A stretch of 22,519 bases of DNA. It comes from a virus. The notes beneath the pieces were generated by a model. That model had not been told where the DNA came from and did no database searches. It worked only from the letters and a program-made list of their open reading frames with translations. Positions 43-5,979 of this stretch are shown in pieces. The position numbers were made by a program, and so were the translations under genes. The stretch lies in IMG/VR virus record IMGVR_UViG_3300010354_000729, positions 1 to 22,519 of that record. One strand, given 5' to 3'. Every line of letters starts with the position of its first letter. Within the stretch, counting starts at the first letter, position 1.

Positions 43-1764
43 CTATCTGTAGTCCCACATGTAGGATCTATCGCCATATTCATCAACATTCCACACTTCC
101 ATTACTTGATTGCTTTTATCCGATCCTACCCATATCCACCTATCATTGTTTTCTCTATCAATAATTGGTTCGAATTCATCTAAACCATCCGAAATAAATC
201 CAAATGGTGACATATCTTGTTCTATTTGATTTTTTTGCTCTTCATAGATTCTTTTACGAACATCATTGTCCGTCATTTCTTTGAAATAATCTTGAGCAAC
301 TAACCAAGAAAAAATAACCAGACACATAGCCAAGTCATCATTACACCCTTCTTCTGCTTCGAATGAATTATGTTTTTGGGTAAAAGTTGTAAGTTCACTA
401 ATTATTTCATAGTCATTAACCAATAACTTATCATCTTCTAATAAAGTTTTTAAATTTGAACATCCCAACTTTTTAACAGATGATGTCATTCGAACACCAA
501 GTTGAGACTTTTTACCACTGAATCCAGAACCAACTATTTGCCCTGCACGACCTCTCATAGAACACATTAAAATGTTATCATATTCAAGATCAAAATGAAG
601 AATATTTGATACTTGATCTCCAATATCATTTACTTCTATTAAAATCCAAGCATTGTTATATCCTTTTGCTACTTCATTAATAATACTTGGAAATAACATT
701 GGTTTAATTTCGTTATTTCTGTATTTTGCTACAGTCTTGTATGGAAAATTGGTAATATCAAAAACAATAAATGCCGAATAATCATTACCAATTCCGCGAG
801 CAACGTCTACGGTAATTAGATAATTGTTTTCTTCTTTTGGATTTTCGTAAATATCCAAATTAGCATTTCTTTTTATTGGATCTTCATATACAAGATTCCT
901 TAGTTTTGATGGATTGATTAAAGTATTGACCGACCCTAAAAACTCACACTCAAACTCTGTTTTGAACTGTTGTTCTGAAGTGTTTGCAATAGTCTGCTCT
1001 TTCCACTTCTCATCTCTTCCAGGAACTTCAGACCAGTGAACATCAGTGGGAACATATTCATTTTTACCCTTCTCAGAATCATGCCACATACGGTAGAAAT
1101 GATTCATACCGCGAGGAGTAGAAACTATAATGACTTTTGTACTTTGACCTGACGATATAGTAGGATAAACAGAGGCAAAGAAGTCATCAGCAATGTGATT
1201 CGGGATGAACGCGAACTCGTCCAAAAAGATGATATTGTACGATCCGCCACGAACAGCAGATGCAGAAGTAGATGCGGCGATAATTTTAGATCCATTTTCT
1301 AATTCTAATGATCCCCTGTTCCATGACAGGATACCTTGCTGCATCCACTTTGGTAAATTTTCATAAGCAAGTTGCAATCTTCCAAGTAAATCTCTTGCAG
1401 TAGATGCTTTGTTCGCTAGAATAGCTATGTTAACATTATCGTTGAAAACGGCGTAGTGTAGTAAGTATGAAACACAAGTTGTTGATTTACCCGTCTGGCG
1501 GGGCATTTTGCAAATATTAAATCTGTTTTTATGGAAATTATTTACTAGTTTCTCTTGAAAGGGATACATTTCAAATGGAACAAGACCATGATCAAGAGAA
1601 ACAATTTTGATATAGTTTTTTGCAAAATATACTGGATCTTCTTTGCACTTTAAAAATTCAATAACCTGTTCTTCTGTCCAAGAAAATGTGGTATTTGCCC
1701 TCTTTAAATTTGGATTAGAAAGATAAGCATCAGATTGCTTAAGTTGAATATCTTGAATTGACAT
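43..1764 (-). CDS. gp17: Terminase large subunit (packaging ATPase/nuclease), T4 gp17 family
   Basis: This is the motor and headful nuclease that pumps concatemeric DNA through the portal into the prohead. The N-terminal ATPase has Walker A PRQTGKST (residues 88-95), Walker B NIIFLDEFAF (177-186, with D182/E183) and the coupling motif VSTPRG (214-219). The C-terminal RNase H-like nuclease shows the expected acidic triad: D320 in ITVDVARG, E377 in ILIEVND and D476/D477 in NDDLAM. At 573 residues it is close to T4 gp17 (610) and looks intact. The ATG lies 3 bases after the preceding stop. A GGAGAG tract about 14 bases upstream is too far away for a strong ribosome binding site, so translational coupling is likely. 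Unlike in T4, the gene is not adjacent to gp16; three genes intervene. Confidence 0.98.
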   Translation of the reverse strand: MSIQDIQLKQSDAYLSNPNLKRANTTFSWTEEQVIEFLKCKEDPVYFAKNYIKIVSLDHGLVPFEMYPFQEKLVNNFHKNRFNICKMPRQTGKSTTCVSYLLHYAVFNDNVNIAILANKASTARDLLGRLQLAYENLPKWMQQGILSWNRGSLELENGSKIIAASTSASAVRGGSYNIIFLDEFAFIPNHIADDFFASVYPTISSGQSTKVIIVSTPRGMNHFYRMWHDSEKGKNEYVPTDVHWSEVPGRDEKWKEQTIANTSEQQFKTEFECEFLGSVNTLINPSKLRNLVYEDPIKRNANLDIYENPKEENNYLITVDVARGIGNDYSAFIVFDITNFPYKTVAKYRNNEIKPMLFPSIINEVAKGYNNAWILIEVNDIGDQVSNILHFDLEYDNILMCSMRGRAGQIVGSGFSGKKSQLGVRMTSSVKKLGCSNLKTLLEDDKLLVNDYEIISELTTFTQKHNSFEAEEGCNDDLAMCLVIFSWLVAQDYFKEMTDNDVRKRIYEEQKNQIEQDMSPFGFISDGLDEFEPIIDRENNDRWIWVGSDKSNQVMEVWNVDEYGDRSYMWDYR

Positions 1765-1767
1765 AAT

Positions 1768-3198
1768 TTAATAAATTTCTCTCCACTGAATTGCTGCCGC
1801 AACTGCTGCAACCGAATTTCCCTGCGTTGTAATAGTTCTTATAACTAGTGCATAAATTTCAGAATTGTCTGAATTTATATTCTGCACAATAACATTTTTC
1901 TTTGCTGCCGTAAGTTCCCCAGAAGAAACTGGTGATAATGAGTTTTGTGATGCACCAGAAGGAACAAAACCTGAAGCAAATACATCACCATCACTATAAG
2001 TTGTTGCATTTACGCAATATTCAACACCACTATTGTCTGATGCAGATGTCCAAGTTAAGGCACCCCCGTTTCCAATAAATGCTGAACTTGGAAGTTTTAC
2101 AATCTTATAAACAATACTATTTGTTTCGCAATACAATGAAATATTGTTTAAACGAACAGATATTCTATTTGGATATCCTTGAAAACTATTTTTAAGACGA
2201 ATGGCAATTAAAGGAAACTCTGTTCCTGCTGGAGTTGGTGTTGTTCTTGTGGTAGTCATTGTGTATGCAAAGTCAATACCACTTTCCGTATATCCTCCCT
2301 CACTTGCAACTGTGGAGCAAATTTGATCAAATGATGCTCCAACACCAACAGCAGTATTTCTTATTTCACAACGAACTGGAAGGTTTGGATTTGAAATATA
2401 AACTTTTGGATTATTATTGGAATGTAAAAATTCGTGAGCAGAAATCAATTTTCCGTCGTGTGCAAAACCACAACGAACTCTACCTACACCTAACCATTGA
2501 AAATCGATGAATAAAAGTTGAGTTTTTGTGAAATCAAGATTAAATCCTGATGCTCCAGTTCCATCACATTTATCTTTATTCCATTGAGATTGTGGAATTC
2601 TGGTTTCTGTTGCAATTCCACTTGTGAATGTTCTAATGACCCAATTATAAGTTCCAATACCAGCATTTACACCATCCGAGGTGCTTAATCCAACTTGTTC
2701 TAAGTATATTCCATCTCTATCATCAAAGTATCCAGTTCTTTTTGTTGCATTCTGTTGAGGTGCATAGAAATTAAAAGAACTAAAAATCAGTTGTGATTTT
2801 CCTGGTTGATAATGATGATATGCTTTTGTTTGGTGAACACAATATGCAGTGCTTCCAATACCTGTTTGTAATCTTGCACAAGCTTGATTTGGTATGAATG
2901 ATATTGTAGACCCAGCACCAGAATAACTATCTATAAAATTGTTATCAATCGCATAGAGATGTTTATAGTCCCCAAGAGTAAATGGTTCTGAAATTCTTTG
3001 TCTACCAAAAGCATCAATAGCAGGTGTATCTGGATTTAGGGTTACATAAGTTCCAGTTGATATTGCAACATTTCCTGTAACTGGAAATGGATTTGTGGTA
3101 GAAACTATTTCGCCATTCTTATTGGCGACCATATTCACCTCAAACAGAGTTCTTTCCTGATTTAGAAAGTCCTGTGTATTCTTATTAAATTGTGCCAT
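1768..3198 (-). CDS. Virion structural protein of marine T4-like phages
   Basis: This 476-residue protein resembles a structural protein family common in marine myoviruses. I recognise it mainly by the segment around residues 62-90 (AFGRQRISEPFTLGDYKHLY) and the downstream QTKAYHHYQPGKSQL (about 125-139) and KRTGYFDDRDG stretches. The sequence is rich in beta-forming residues, aromatics, Gly, Ser and Thr, with no signal peptide, membrane segment or enzymatic motif. It may be a capsid or tail surface (lectin-like) component, but its position in the virion is not evident. The start has a plausible GGGGTGA ribosome binding site 8 bases upstream, and the gene begins 3 bases after the 105-residue gene. 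It ends 3 bases before gp17, so these genes are probably co-transcribed. Finding a structural gene between the two terminase subunits is unlike T4. Confidence 0.8.
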   Translation of the reverse strand: MAQFNKNTQDFLNQERTLFEVNMVANKNGEIVSTTNPFPVTGNVAISTGTYVTLNPDTPAIDAFGRQRISEPFTLGDYKHLYAIDNNFIDSYSGAGSTISFIPNQACARLQTGIGSTAYCVHQTKAYHHYQPGKSQLIFSSFNFYAPQQNATKRTGYFDDRDGIYLEQVGLSTSDGVNAGIGTYNWVIRTFTSGIATETRIPQSQWNKDKCDGTGASGFNLDFTKTQLLFIDFQWLGVGRVRCGFAHDGKLISAHEFLHSNNNPKVYISNPNLPVRCEIRNTAVGVGASFDQICSTVASEGGYTESGIDFAYTMTTTRTTPTPAGTEFPLIAIRLKNSFQGYPNRISVRLNNISLYCETNSIVYKIVKLPSSAFIGNGGALTWTSASDNSGVEYCVNATTYSDGDVFASGFVPSGASQNSLSPVSSGELTAAKKNVIVQNINSDNSEIYALVIRTITTQGNSVAAVAAAIQWREIY

Positions 3199-3201
3199 TA
3201 A

Positions 3202-3519
3202 TTATTCACCCCAAGTCAATCTTTCTGGTTGATATCTCTGAGAACTTTTAATTTTTAAAGAACTTTGAGATTGTGTTGGATAGATGTTATGAACAATCGC
3301 TCCTGGATATTCTCCTTGAAGATTTTCTGCTAGTTCATTTTTATTCATCATCTTACCTTCAACTTCTAAACGATACATCTTTCCTTCCCAAACAACATCT
3401 GCAAAGAAGGACTCTCCAACTGGATCTGACTGTGTATCAGATCCGTTTACATAGAGATTTCCATTGAAATCTCCTGCAATATTGATGCTTTCTGATAAAA
3501 ATTGTTGAAATGATTTCAT
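3202..3519 (-). CDS. Small protein with T4-like capsid-targeting N-terminus; candidate internal head protein
   Basis: This 105-residue protein has no known function. Its first ten residues, MKSFQQFLSE, align without gaps to the T4 internal-protein capsid-targeting sequence MKTYQEFIAE. M, K, Q, F and E are identical and the other five positions are conservative. The L-S-E at residues 8-10 fits the (L/I)-x-E cleavage signature of the gp21 prohead protease, so cleavage would leave about 95 residues starting SINIAG. The body has a VVWEGKMYRLEVEG beta segment and an ELAENLQGEYPGAIVHNIYP segment (about 62-81), suggesting a small alpha/beta fold. The C-terminus ends in RYQPERLTWGE. No cysteines or membrane segment are present. 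The ATG lies one base after the 671-residue gene's stop and lacks a clear ribosome binding site, implying coupled translation. Packaging inside the head is inference from the N-terminus. Confidence 0.75.
   Translation of the reverse strand: MKSFQQFLSESINIAGDFNGNLYVNGSDTQSDPVGESFFADVVWEGKMYRLEVEGKMMNKNELAENLQGEYPGAIVHNIYPTQSQSSLKIKSSQRYQPERLTWGE
3490..3519 (-). other. Predicted capsid-targeting sequence and prohead-protease site
   Basis: This stretch encodes MKSFQQFLSE, the first ten residues of the 105-residue protein. In T4 the equivalent decapeptide directs internal proteins into the prohead core and is cleaved after Glu by gp21. Predicted cleavage here is between E10 and S11. The similarity is read directly from the sequence; the function is inferred. 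Confidence 0.6.
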
Positions 3520-3520
3520 T

Positions 3521-5536
3521 TTAGTTACAGTTCCAACGACGGAGGGCTTTGTTAATTCTTGAATCTGGATCTCTTGCGGTTTTTGCTGAAGTAAGTTTTG
3601 ATTTCATTCCTTTCATACGACGGCAAAAATTAGCACGACGCTTTGCTCTTTTTCCCTTTGGTTTCTTTTCAGTGACCGCAGTTTGGAGTTTTGAACCTGG
3701 ATTCTCTTGGCGATAAGCATCAACTGCTGCTTGACTTAATCCATCAGTTTTGTCTTTTCTATTGACTTTTTGCCAATCTTCAGATAATCCAAAATCTGCT
3801 CTCCAATTTGAATATCCTTCTTTTTGTTGCTTCTTAGGACTAGTCAATAAACCATAAATACCGCCCGCAATTGCCAGTGGAATTGCAACTTTAGGATTTT
3901 TTACTTTTGATAATGCTTTTAAAAGTGATGGTTTTGCTGCAGTTTTTGCTGCTCTTCTTGCTTGCGCTGCTGCTACATTTTGCGCTCCTTGCCTACGTGC
4001 CGCAGACATACGATCATAAGATGATTGCGTTCTAGCACTTTGTCCCCTATTCTGAGTCGTTGTTGATTTGGGTACATTAGGTAGTTGTGATCCAGAACCT
4101 ACTGGTTTTGGTGTTGCTGATTTTGCTTGTTTTCTCATTGCATCAATTTTTTCTGCAGCACCAGGATTTGATTTTTTGAGATTTTCAATTTGTTCTGGAG
4201 TCATATCTTTTAATTTATCTTCCCACTTCTCTGAGATAATTAATTCATCTCTCCAGTTGGAATATTCTTCCTTCTTCACACAACGATTGTAAGTTTTTCC
4301 GAACAACTTCTGGGTACCTTTTTTCTCATATCCCGCCCAACACTTTTTCGCCTCATCAACATTATGCTCTCCACTTTCAATATAATCTGCAGCAGAATCA
4401 ATATAATCTGCTGCTTTTGTAATTTTTGACTGAACCCATGCCTCAATATTACCTTCACCCTTCATTTTTTTACGAAGTCTTTTTGCTGCAGAAATAATTG
4501 TGGATAATTCCGAGCGTGCCATTGAATATTCATGATCATATCCTTCTGGCATATTTCCAGGATGTGGCATGGTTGTATTAAAATCTTTTTTTGAACTAAT
4601 TAATTCTGCTGGTAATGAAAACATATCCCAGTATTTTGTACCATATTTACATTCTTCTCTTCTTTCATTCTTTTTACATTTTGGACAATATCTCTCTAAT
4701 TTATCTCTAATTGGGCCGTCCCAGTCATATGTAAGTGCTCCAGTATAAGCACTCTCAGTCTTTGTTCCCCAATTTGAAGCGCCTTTTTTACGACATTTGA
4801 CCAGTGCTCCAGATGCATATGCACTTGGCCAAACACTATATCTAGATTTTACTTTATGATAACAAGCATCTTTTTTACCACTACCTTTACCTGGTTTATC
4901 TTTTGCTTCCTGAATTTCTATTTCTTCTTTCATTTTTTTTCTAGGTGAATCTGTGGAAACATATGTTGGTTTTGCAGCACCTGATTTTTGCTGTTGACTA
5001 GGATCTGCTGCCTTTTTTCTTCTTGCTGCAGATAATCTTTCGGACTTTGACATACTTGCTCTTTTTGATGAAGAAACACATTTAGGAACACCTTCACCAG
5101 GTTCATCACTAGCGCAAGTTCCACCAGTTACAACATTTACCCAACCTGGTTTTCCATCTTTTGATTTACTATCGAACCATTTATGCAAACTACCTTCAGA
5201 GACATCTTTAAATTTTTTATGATGCTTCTTGGCATCTGCTTCCATCTTTTTTAAACGAGTATAATAATCTGGAATTTCATCTAAATGTTGGAGAGCAATT
5301 TCCCTAGCAAGTTTATGATCTTTAGTGTGCTCATGCTCAATTGGTTCTCCCATATCCAATTGCTTTTGAATAAAAGAAACTTTCAAACGATGCTTCTTAG
5401 CAATCTGTTCAACTGTTTTAAATGGTTTTAATTGCTCTTTCAATTTTTTTCTGCGACCTTGACAATGTGCCTTTTGAGAAAATCCTTTGGGATTATTACA
5501 ATCAATAGATTTTTTATATTTTTCTGACCAACCCAT
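3521..5536 (-). CDS. Mosaic Lys/Cys-rich multi-module protein, unknown function
   Basis: This 671-residue protein is a string of short modules seen in different orders in marine phage (and some giant virus) proteins. Visible modules are: SEKYKKSIDCNNPKGFSQKA (4-23); a DUF5661-like HEHTKDHKLAREIALQHLDE stretch running on to PDYYTRL (68-95); a DUF5872-like region around HKWFDSK to YVSTDSPRK (118-200); KKDACYHKVKSRYSVWPSAY (221-240); a CxxC...C zinc-knuckle-like region (C284, C287, C296); a helical MARSELSTIISAAKRLRKKM block (339-390); CWAGYEKKGTQKLFGKT (399-415); and a basic CRRMKGMKSKLTSAKTARD tail (638-656). YSNWR...(I/L)SE occurs twice (425-436 and 575-586). A hydrophobic stretch (about 550-565) could span a membrane. 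No catalytic motif is evident. The start is the conserved MGWSEKYKKS but has no clear ribosome binding site. It lies 14 bases after gp16. It may be a packaged internal or scaffold-like protein; that is inference. Confidence 0.8.
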   Translation of the reverse strand: MGWSEKYKKSIDCNNPKGFSQKAHCQGRRKKLKEQLKPFKTVEQIAKKHRLKVSFIQKQLDMGEPIEHEHTKDHKLAREIALQHLDEIPDYYTRLKKMEADAKKHHKKFKDVSEGSLHKWFDSKSKDGKPGWVNVVTGGTCASDEPGEGVPKCVSSSKRASMSKSERLSAARRKKAADPSQQQKSGAAKPTYVSTDSPRKKMKEEIEIQEAKDKPGKGSGKKDACYHKVKSRYSVWPSAYASGALVKCRKKGASNWGTKTESAYTGALTYDWDGPIRDKLERYCPKCKKNERREECKYGTKYWDMFSLPAELISSKKDFNTTMPHPGNMPEGYDHEYSMARSELSTIISAAKRLRKKMKGEGNIEAWVQSKITKAADYIDSAADYIESGEHNVDEAKKCWAGYEKKGTQKLFGKTYNRCVKKEEYSNWRDELIISEKWEDKLKDMTPEQIENLKKSNPGAAEKIDAMRKQAKSATPKPVGSGSQLPNVPKSTTTQNRGQSARTQSSYDRMSAARRQGAQNVAAAQARRAAKTAAKPSLLKALSKVKNPKVAIPLAIAGGIYGLLTSPKKQQKEGYSNWRADFGLSEDWQKVNRKDKTDGLSQAAVDAYRQENPGSKLQTAVTEKKPKGKRAKRRANFCRRMKGMKSKLTSAKTARDPDSRINKALRRWNCN

Positions 5537-5550
5537 CAGATCAAAAAGAA

Positions 5551-5979
5551 CTATTCTTTATTATTTAGAAAACCTTGCTTTAGTAATTTTGATAATTCGG
5601 AGGTAGATCCAACAAAAACTGCATTATTGGTAACATTGTTCGTTGTTTTTACAGTTTCTTCTTCTATATCTTTTAATTTCTTTTGTAAATCTATAAGTTT
5701 GTCGGTTACGTCACCAACACTTTTTATAAGTTGCCCAGCGACCTCATAGGCCCTTGGTTGATCACTTTCTGCAGCAAGTTCCATAATTCCATCAATCGCT
5801 TCCTGACCCTTTTCAATTAAAGAGTAAAGGTTCGCTCTTGTATATTCATAATCTTTTTTTATATCAACTGATGATTGATCAATAGGTTTTATTTCTGTAC
5901 AATTTGGTTCTTCATAAATCTGCATTTCGCTAGTTGTGTTTAACACATTGTCTAAGGAGTCAAAATTTTTAGATTTCAT
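5551..5979 (-). CDS. gp16: Terminase small subunit, T4 gp16 family
   Basis: This is the DNA-recognition and regulatory subunit of the packaging motor, which forms an oligomeric ring and modulates gp17. At 142 residues it is slightly shorter than T4 gp16 (164). The helical core, about residues 43-105, follows T4 closely: DYEYTRANLY matches DYGVVRRNMH, ESDQPRAYEV matches NADSPRHMEV, and LIDLQKKLKDI matches ILKLHKDMKDI. The C-terminal NAVFVGSTSEL (119-129) corresponds to T4 NATVFMGSPTEL. The ATG lies 5 bases after the gp15 stop with no obvious ribosome binding site, so coupling to gp15 is likely. It is followed by the 671-residue mosaic gene instead of gp17, which is the unusual feature of this locus. 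Confidence 0.93.
   Translation of the reverse strand: MKSKNFDSLDNVLNTTSEMQIYEEPNCTEIKPIDQSSVDIKKDYEYTRANLYSLIEKGQEAIDGIMELAAESDQPRAYEVAGQLIKSVGDVTDKLIDLQKKLKDIEEETVKTTNNVTNNAVFVGSTSELSKLLKQGFLNNKE

Follow-up and report, generated by a model that had tools for sequence, protein, structure and literature searches.

We find that the 105-residue protein encoded in a 22.5-kb fragment of a T4-like cyanomyovirus (IMGVR_UViG_3300010354_000729, 22,519 nt; hereafter the window) is, as judged from its sequence, probably an internal head protein that is targeted to the capsid and trimmed by the prohead protease gp21. The tag at its N-terminus would bind the core of the prohead during assembly, so that the protein is enclosed, and the S77 protease gp21 would then cut after Glu10, with about 95 residues staying in the head. 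The 105-residue protein itself would thereby be packaged, cut, and leave with the DNA; its entry into the host along with the DNA is possible, and ejection followed by early action on the host is plausible by analogy with T4.

The tag appears to be general in these cyanophages, and its presence on unrelated proteins found in particles probably explains how extra proteins are loaded for delivery to the host. We also regard it as probable that a modular tag shared across the family (MKxFxxF[L/I/M]xE, cut by gp21 after the E) loads unrelated cargo into heads for delivery—i.e. NMNAT/cytidylyltransferase, SAM hydrolase, APH-like kinase, a Cas9-annotated nuclease, a HiPIP-like iron-sulfur protein, an ADP-ribosyltransferase-like protein, and the 105-residue protein of the window.

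The N-terminal decapeptide and its conservation

The annotated genome nearest to the window is that of Synechococcus phage S-SRM01 (~78% identity across the aligned 27%). All genes in question lie on the minus strand, in the order gp17, virion structural protein, 105-aa gene, 671-aa gene, gp16, gp15, gp14, gp13, and baseplate genes (Table 1), and the 671-aa and 105-aa genes are joined as stop-A-ATG. The first-pass annotation placed the decapeptide MKSFQQFLSE at the start of the small protein, and this is confirmed on the minus strand, where it opens a 105-codon reading frame (3519..3202); coding on the plus strand is ruled out by that frame.

Table 1. Features of the window around the 105-aa gene
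Feature	Positions	Strand	Basis
Terminase large subunit (gp17)	43..1764	-	PHROG annotation
476-aa virion structural protein, phrog_1645 (head and packaging)	1768..3198	-	Directly downstream of 105-aa gene
105-aa protein, PHROG_1742 (annotated unknown function)	3202..3519	-	ORF call; PHROG match E 3.5e-41
Predicted mature 95-residue chain SINIAGDF..., pI 4.8	3205..3489	-	Inferred from (L/I)-x-E rule (PMC9026906)
Folded body, residues 36-105	3205..3414	-	AlphaFold model
Predicted gp21 cut after E10	between 3490 and 3489	-	(L/I)-x-E rule
Decapeptide MKSFQQFLSE, capsid-targeting type	3490..3519	-	Codons from 3519 down to 3490
671-aa basic neighbour, pI 9.8, DUF5661 + DUF6321	3521..5536	-	ORF + domain/PHROG matches
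Terminase small subunit (gp16)	5551..5979	-	PHROG annotation

Aligned without gaps to the T4 peptide MKTYQEFIAE, the decapeptide has the 5 identities and 5 conservative changes first reported for it. The same report had attributed the T4 peptide to internal proteins I and III, which holds for III and fails for I: the exact sequence opens two T4 proteins, IPIII (193 aa) and IPII (100 aa). A random start would reach such similarity with a probability of about 5e-7, and the window contains 636 start codons. With a two-reference score, one reference being the tag itself, the tag reaches 49, while the next best start in the window, an internal TTG, reaches 27.

The small protein is a full-length member of PHROG_1742 (T4-GC 1019 in Syn33), a family that is present in 139 cyanophage records, has the same gene order, and is annotated without a role. 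Among unique relatives, 114 of 116 have an ATG at the start of the tag, the remaining two having TAT or TCT. Across the family M1, F7, and E10 never change and K2 hardly ever does; position 4 is F or Y, position 8 is L, I, or M, and positions 5 and 6 vary. A set of 65 diverse homologues shows no variation at residues 1, 2, 7, and 10 and very little at 3 and 4. This pattern matches the genetics of the T4 capsid-targeting sequence (CTS), in which residues 4 and 7 mainly serve targeting, residues 8 and 10 allow processing, and cleavage follows (L/I)-x-E (PMC9026906). Within PHROG_1742 residues 11–14 are conserved along with the first ten, so family conservation by itself does not isolate the tag, and it is other genes that give the answer.

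The decapeptide thus resembles the CTS of T4 IPII and IPIII (Mullaney and Black 1996, reviewed in PMC9026906) in its N-terminal position and in F/Y4, F7, L/I8, and E10, and the two systems are further alike in that unrelated bodies are tagged and in that an S77 prohead protease and the gp23 cut site are of one type. They differ in the consensus, here MKSFxxFLSE, in a body unrelated to the T4 internal proteins, and in that packaging and cleavage are here predicted from sequence. PHROG_1742 bodies do not cluster with T4 IPII or IPIII at E 0.01 (IPI was left out of this comparison), and the body of the window protein is acidic (pI 4.8), unlike the basic T4 proteins.

The processing machinery is present in relatives. 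An S77 protease of the gp21 type, whose existence had been anticipated, is encoded in nine of the ten relative records checked, among them two environmental contigs that carry it about 2–10 kb from the 105-aa gene; the tenth record is a partial contig. The window itself, a 22.5-kb fragment, stops before that region. The gp23 propeptide of T4 is cut at SFLTE^A (the caret marks the cut), and the aligned residues are SFLSE^A in S-SRM01, NFLSE^A in P-SSM2, and I-L-[NT]-E^T in three others; the tag in the window ends FLSE^S.

The tag on unrelated proteins of relatives

A search of a whole genome for other tagged proteins, suggested in the first-pass annotation, was productive in S-SRM01, where 9 of the 346 predicted genes have tag-like N-termini: their primary starts score at least 28, whereas 2000 column shuffles give an expectation of 0.08 and never more than 2. 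The tagged genes are gp208 (the homologue of the 105-aa gene), gp270, gp061, gp246, gp219, gp258, gp165, gp168, and gp167. When all 5151 possible starts are scored, each of the nine best coincides with a gene start or lies very close to one, and K[STN][FY]xxFxxE occurs 4 times in the full S-SRM01 gene set, always at residue 2. Once the first twelve residues are removed, the bodies of the tagged proteins fall into many unrelated groups. A recent duplication of the tag at the DNA level is ruled out because the tags use different codons.

In a set of 12 phage records, MKx[FY]xxFxxE at an ATG gives 29 matches, all opening reading frames of at least 54 aa, while the reversed pattern gives 3. As a positive control, the pattern finds only IPII, IPIII, and gp61.1 in T4. 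The column shuffles and the reversed-pattern control rule out a generic start-codon bias. T4 gp61.1 (NC_000866 19130..18966), a 54-aa protein with a Lys-rich end, starts MKTFKEFIKE.

Several of the tagged genes have features of their own. In S-SRM01, gp219 adjoins the major capsid gene, and the tagged ATG of gp246 lies 21 bases ahead of the annotated start. Three tagged genes (gp165, gp167, and gp168) form a cluster at 81722-84158, and of these gp167 and gp168 are strongly basic paralogues that start MKTFQ[EQ]FQESAAIARGAL, where FQE stands instead of L-x-E. The product of gp061 (47292-47495) is a 67-aa HiPIP-type iron-sulfur protein (PF01355) with the tag MKSFQEFLFE, and an environmental relative of it has MKSYQEFIAE. 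By simple count, a CTAAATA motif that resembles a T4-type late promoter stands 16–27 bases before the start of 4 of the 9 tagged genes (gp165, gp167, gp219, and gp246). Another environmental record, IMGVR_UViG_3300031951_000015, encodes at about 56.3-57.0 kb (3001-3648 of the extracted piece) a 216-aa protein tagged MKTFSEFIAE, in which a T.H-GF-VYTTPS pattern is conserved and whose model (pLDDT 56) matches many folds weakly (Z about 2–3). Together, the pattern and the modelled structure point to an ADP-ribosyltransferase fold, which would parallel T4 Alt.

Tagged proteins in published virion proteomes

Published mass spectrometry (MS) places tagged proteins in particles. The cytidylyltransferase T4-GC190 was detected in purified S-SM1 virions and was not detected in those of S-PM2 (Sullivan et al. 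2010, PMC3037559); its tag, MKKFSAFLNE, is the single best among the 5018 starts of S-SM1. The S-SCSM1 NMNAT, annotated as a detected virion protein, starts MKSFLQFLKE. For S-CREM2, all 219 annotated proteins were considered, 52 of which are MS-detected (PMC10665884, Table 3). All three proteins that match a pattern fixed beforehand (gp6, gp14, and gp154) are among those detected (P = 0.013); they are a SAM hydrolase (MKDFDSFLEE), an APH-like kinase (MKRFDAFLTE, from a GTG start), and a cytidylyltransferase (MKNFSSFLTE). Relaxing position 4 to admit L, which was decided once gp13 had been seen, adds this detected protein (4/4, P = 0.003). The cytidylyltransferase/NMNAT (T4-GC190; phrog_395), MS-detected in virions of S-SM1, S-SCSM1, and S-CREM2, thus has a tag like that of the window protein on an unrelated enzyme body.

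Taking S-SM1, S-CREM2, and S-SCSM1 together, 5 of 6 tagged proteins are detected; the chance of at least 5 of 6 is about 0.0015, or about 0.005 when the S-PM2 miss is counted, and these counts are not fully independent given that the cytidylyltransferases are homologous across phages. The one miss among the six is gp030 of S-SCSM1 (MKTFKQFMSE), the homologue of the 105-aa protein. Its label is "hypothetical protein," and the products on either side are both called "virion protein," so it apparently escaped detection in the published proteome. Only about two of its tryptic peptides are well suited to detection, and the peptide across the cut has 45 residues, which makes the miss weak evidence, calling for caution rather than amounting to a refutation.

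The claim that the N-terminus of the window protein is a T4-type CTS is thus supported by its recurrence on unrelated proteins of relatives (S-SRM01, S-CREM2), though not within the window itself, by gp21 in relatives, by the gp23 site, and by published MS. The authors of cyanophage virion proteomes left undecided whether such proteins are cargo or carry-over.

Two further S-CREM2 proteins detected in virions have tag-like sequences. The Cas9-annotated gp12 (OR473000 10313..7704) has RFASFMAE^A at residues 18-25 and ends in KTFRDFLN; its annotated start may be too early, or its tag may be internal. The product of gp136 (107301-108014), a gene located between gp16 and gp17 in the slot held in the window by the 671-aa and 105-aa genes, starts MQTFSMFFSE.

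The protein body and its basic neighbour

In the AlphaFold model, residues 36-105 form a beta-beta-alpha-beta fold with a short hairpin, mostly at high confidence and weaker in blocks around residues 31-40 and 81-90. Residues 1-35 are of low confidence save for a short helix at 4-9, which fits the expectation for a removable tag and linker. No Pfam match is found for the body, and a search of PDB sequence profiles gives a single match, to RPA (E about 0.1), that we treat as due to chance. The fold resembles that of the T7 RNA polymerase inhibitor Gp2 (Foldseek E 0.19; 49 residues superposed at rmsd 2.7, Z 4.3), which is a lead at most: profile comparison finds nothing, so homology is unsupported. 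Phycobilisome-linker and ribosomal proteins also match, at Z about 3–4, which indicates a common small fold.

In all seven annotated phages examined, the 105-aa homologue directly follows a gene of the large basic neighbour's family, and the gene after it is mostly annotated as a structural protein. The family profile also finds the small domain inside homologues of the neighbour in S-CAM9 (the best match, E 5e-11), DSL-LC02, S-B05, and S-SCSM1, while the PHROG_1742 profile does not find it in the 671-aa protein of the window. Based on this fusion and on gene adjacency, the 105-aa protein is most likely a small partner of the basic neighbour inside the head. The S-SCSM1 homologue of the neighbour is annotated as a virion protein, which favours a partnership located in the head.

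Alternative explanations

A reading that extends and overlaps the preferred one, and that the first-pass annotation put forward in full, is that the protein leaves the head together with the DNA to act on the host early, as T4 IPI, IPIII, or Alt do; we hold this to be a serious possibility, if somewhat short of an even one. Tagged T4 proteins are injected and act early (PMC9026906), other tagged cyanophage proteins resemble host-acting enzymes (SAM hydrolase, kinase, NMNAT), the ADP-ribosyltransferase-like protein bears the tag, and the small fold resembles Gp2, among others. The last of these points is offset by the marginal scores and the negative profile comparison, and the gene is conserved with, and lies directly after, a virion gene, rather than in a variable region. 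A role inside the head would fit the acidic body and the shared domain of the basic neighbour's family just as well.

It is less probable, and in our judgement unlikely, that the tag brings the protein to the prohead core as an assembly or scaffolding-phase factor, which after the gp21 cut is broken down or exits the head and is thus missing from mature virions. The S-SCSM1 homologue lacks the virion label, and T4 core proteins are largely removed once cleaved (PMC9026906), but the predicted cut near the N-terminus would leave a compact and mostly confidently modelled body, and small size limits MS detection. A resemblance arising from chance or codon bias, or an amphipathic helix at the start that serves some other purpose (e.g. 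docking to the neck or the terminase), is strongly disfavoured and appears very improbable. The gene does sit among neck and terminase genes, and starts with MK are frequent in AT-rich phage genes. Against this explanation stand the column shuffles, the restriction to residue 2, the reversed pattern, the T4 positive control, and the association with virion proteomes. A capsid-targeted internal head protein is thus the reading we prefer.

Implications and further observations

In the literature searched, which left most subscription papers outside, cyanophages are found next to the CTS only in the reference list of a CTS paper. Signals of this kind are known, but that literature appears to hold no description of cyanophages using one generally, or of one on these enzymes. 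The tag gives the PHROG_1742 family a testable role and, if true, would explain why enzymes are repeatedly found in cyanophage virion proteomes; it makes directly testable whether NMNAT, SAM hydrolase, kinase, and Cas9-like nuclease are cargo or carry-over from purification. It also predicts further cargo from the N-terminus, and would mark candidate host-entering proteins in phages that are very abundant in marine and freshwater environments.

The motif YSNWRxxxxxSE occurs twice in the 671-aa protein (residues 425-436 and 575-586), and both copies end in (I/L)-x-E, a possible internal processing site.
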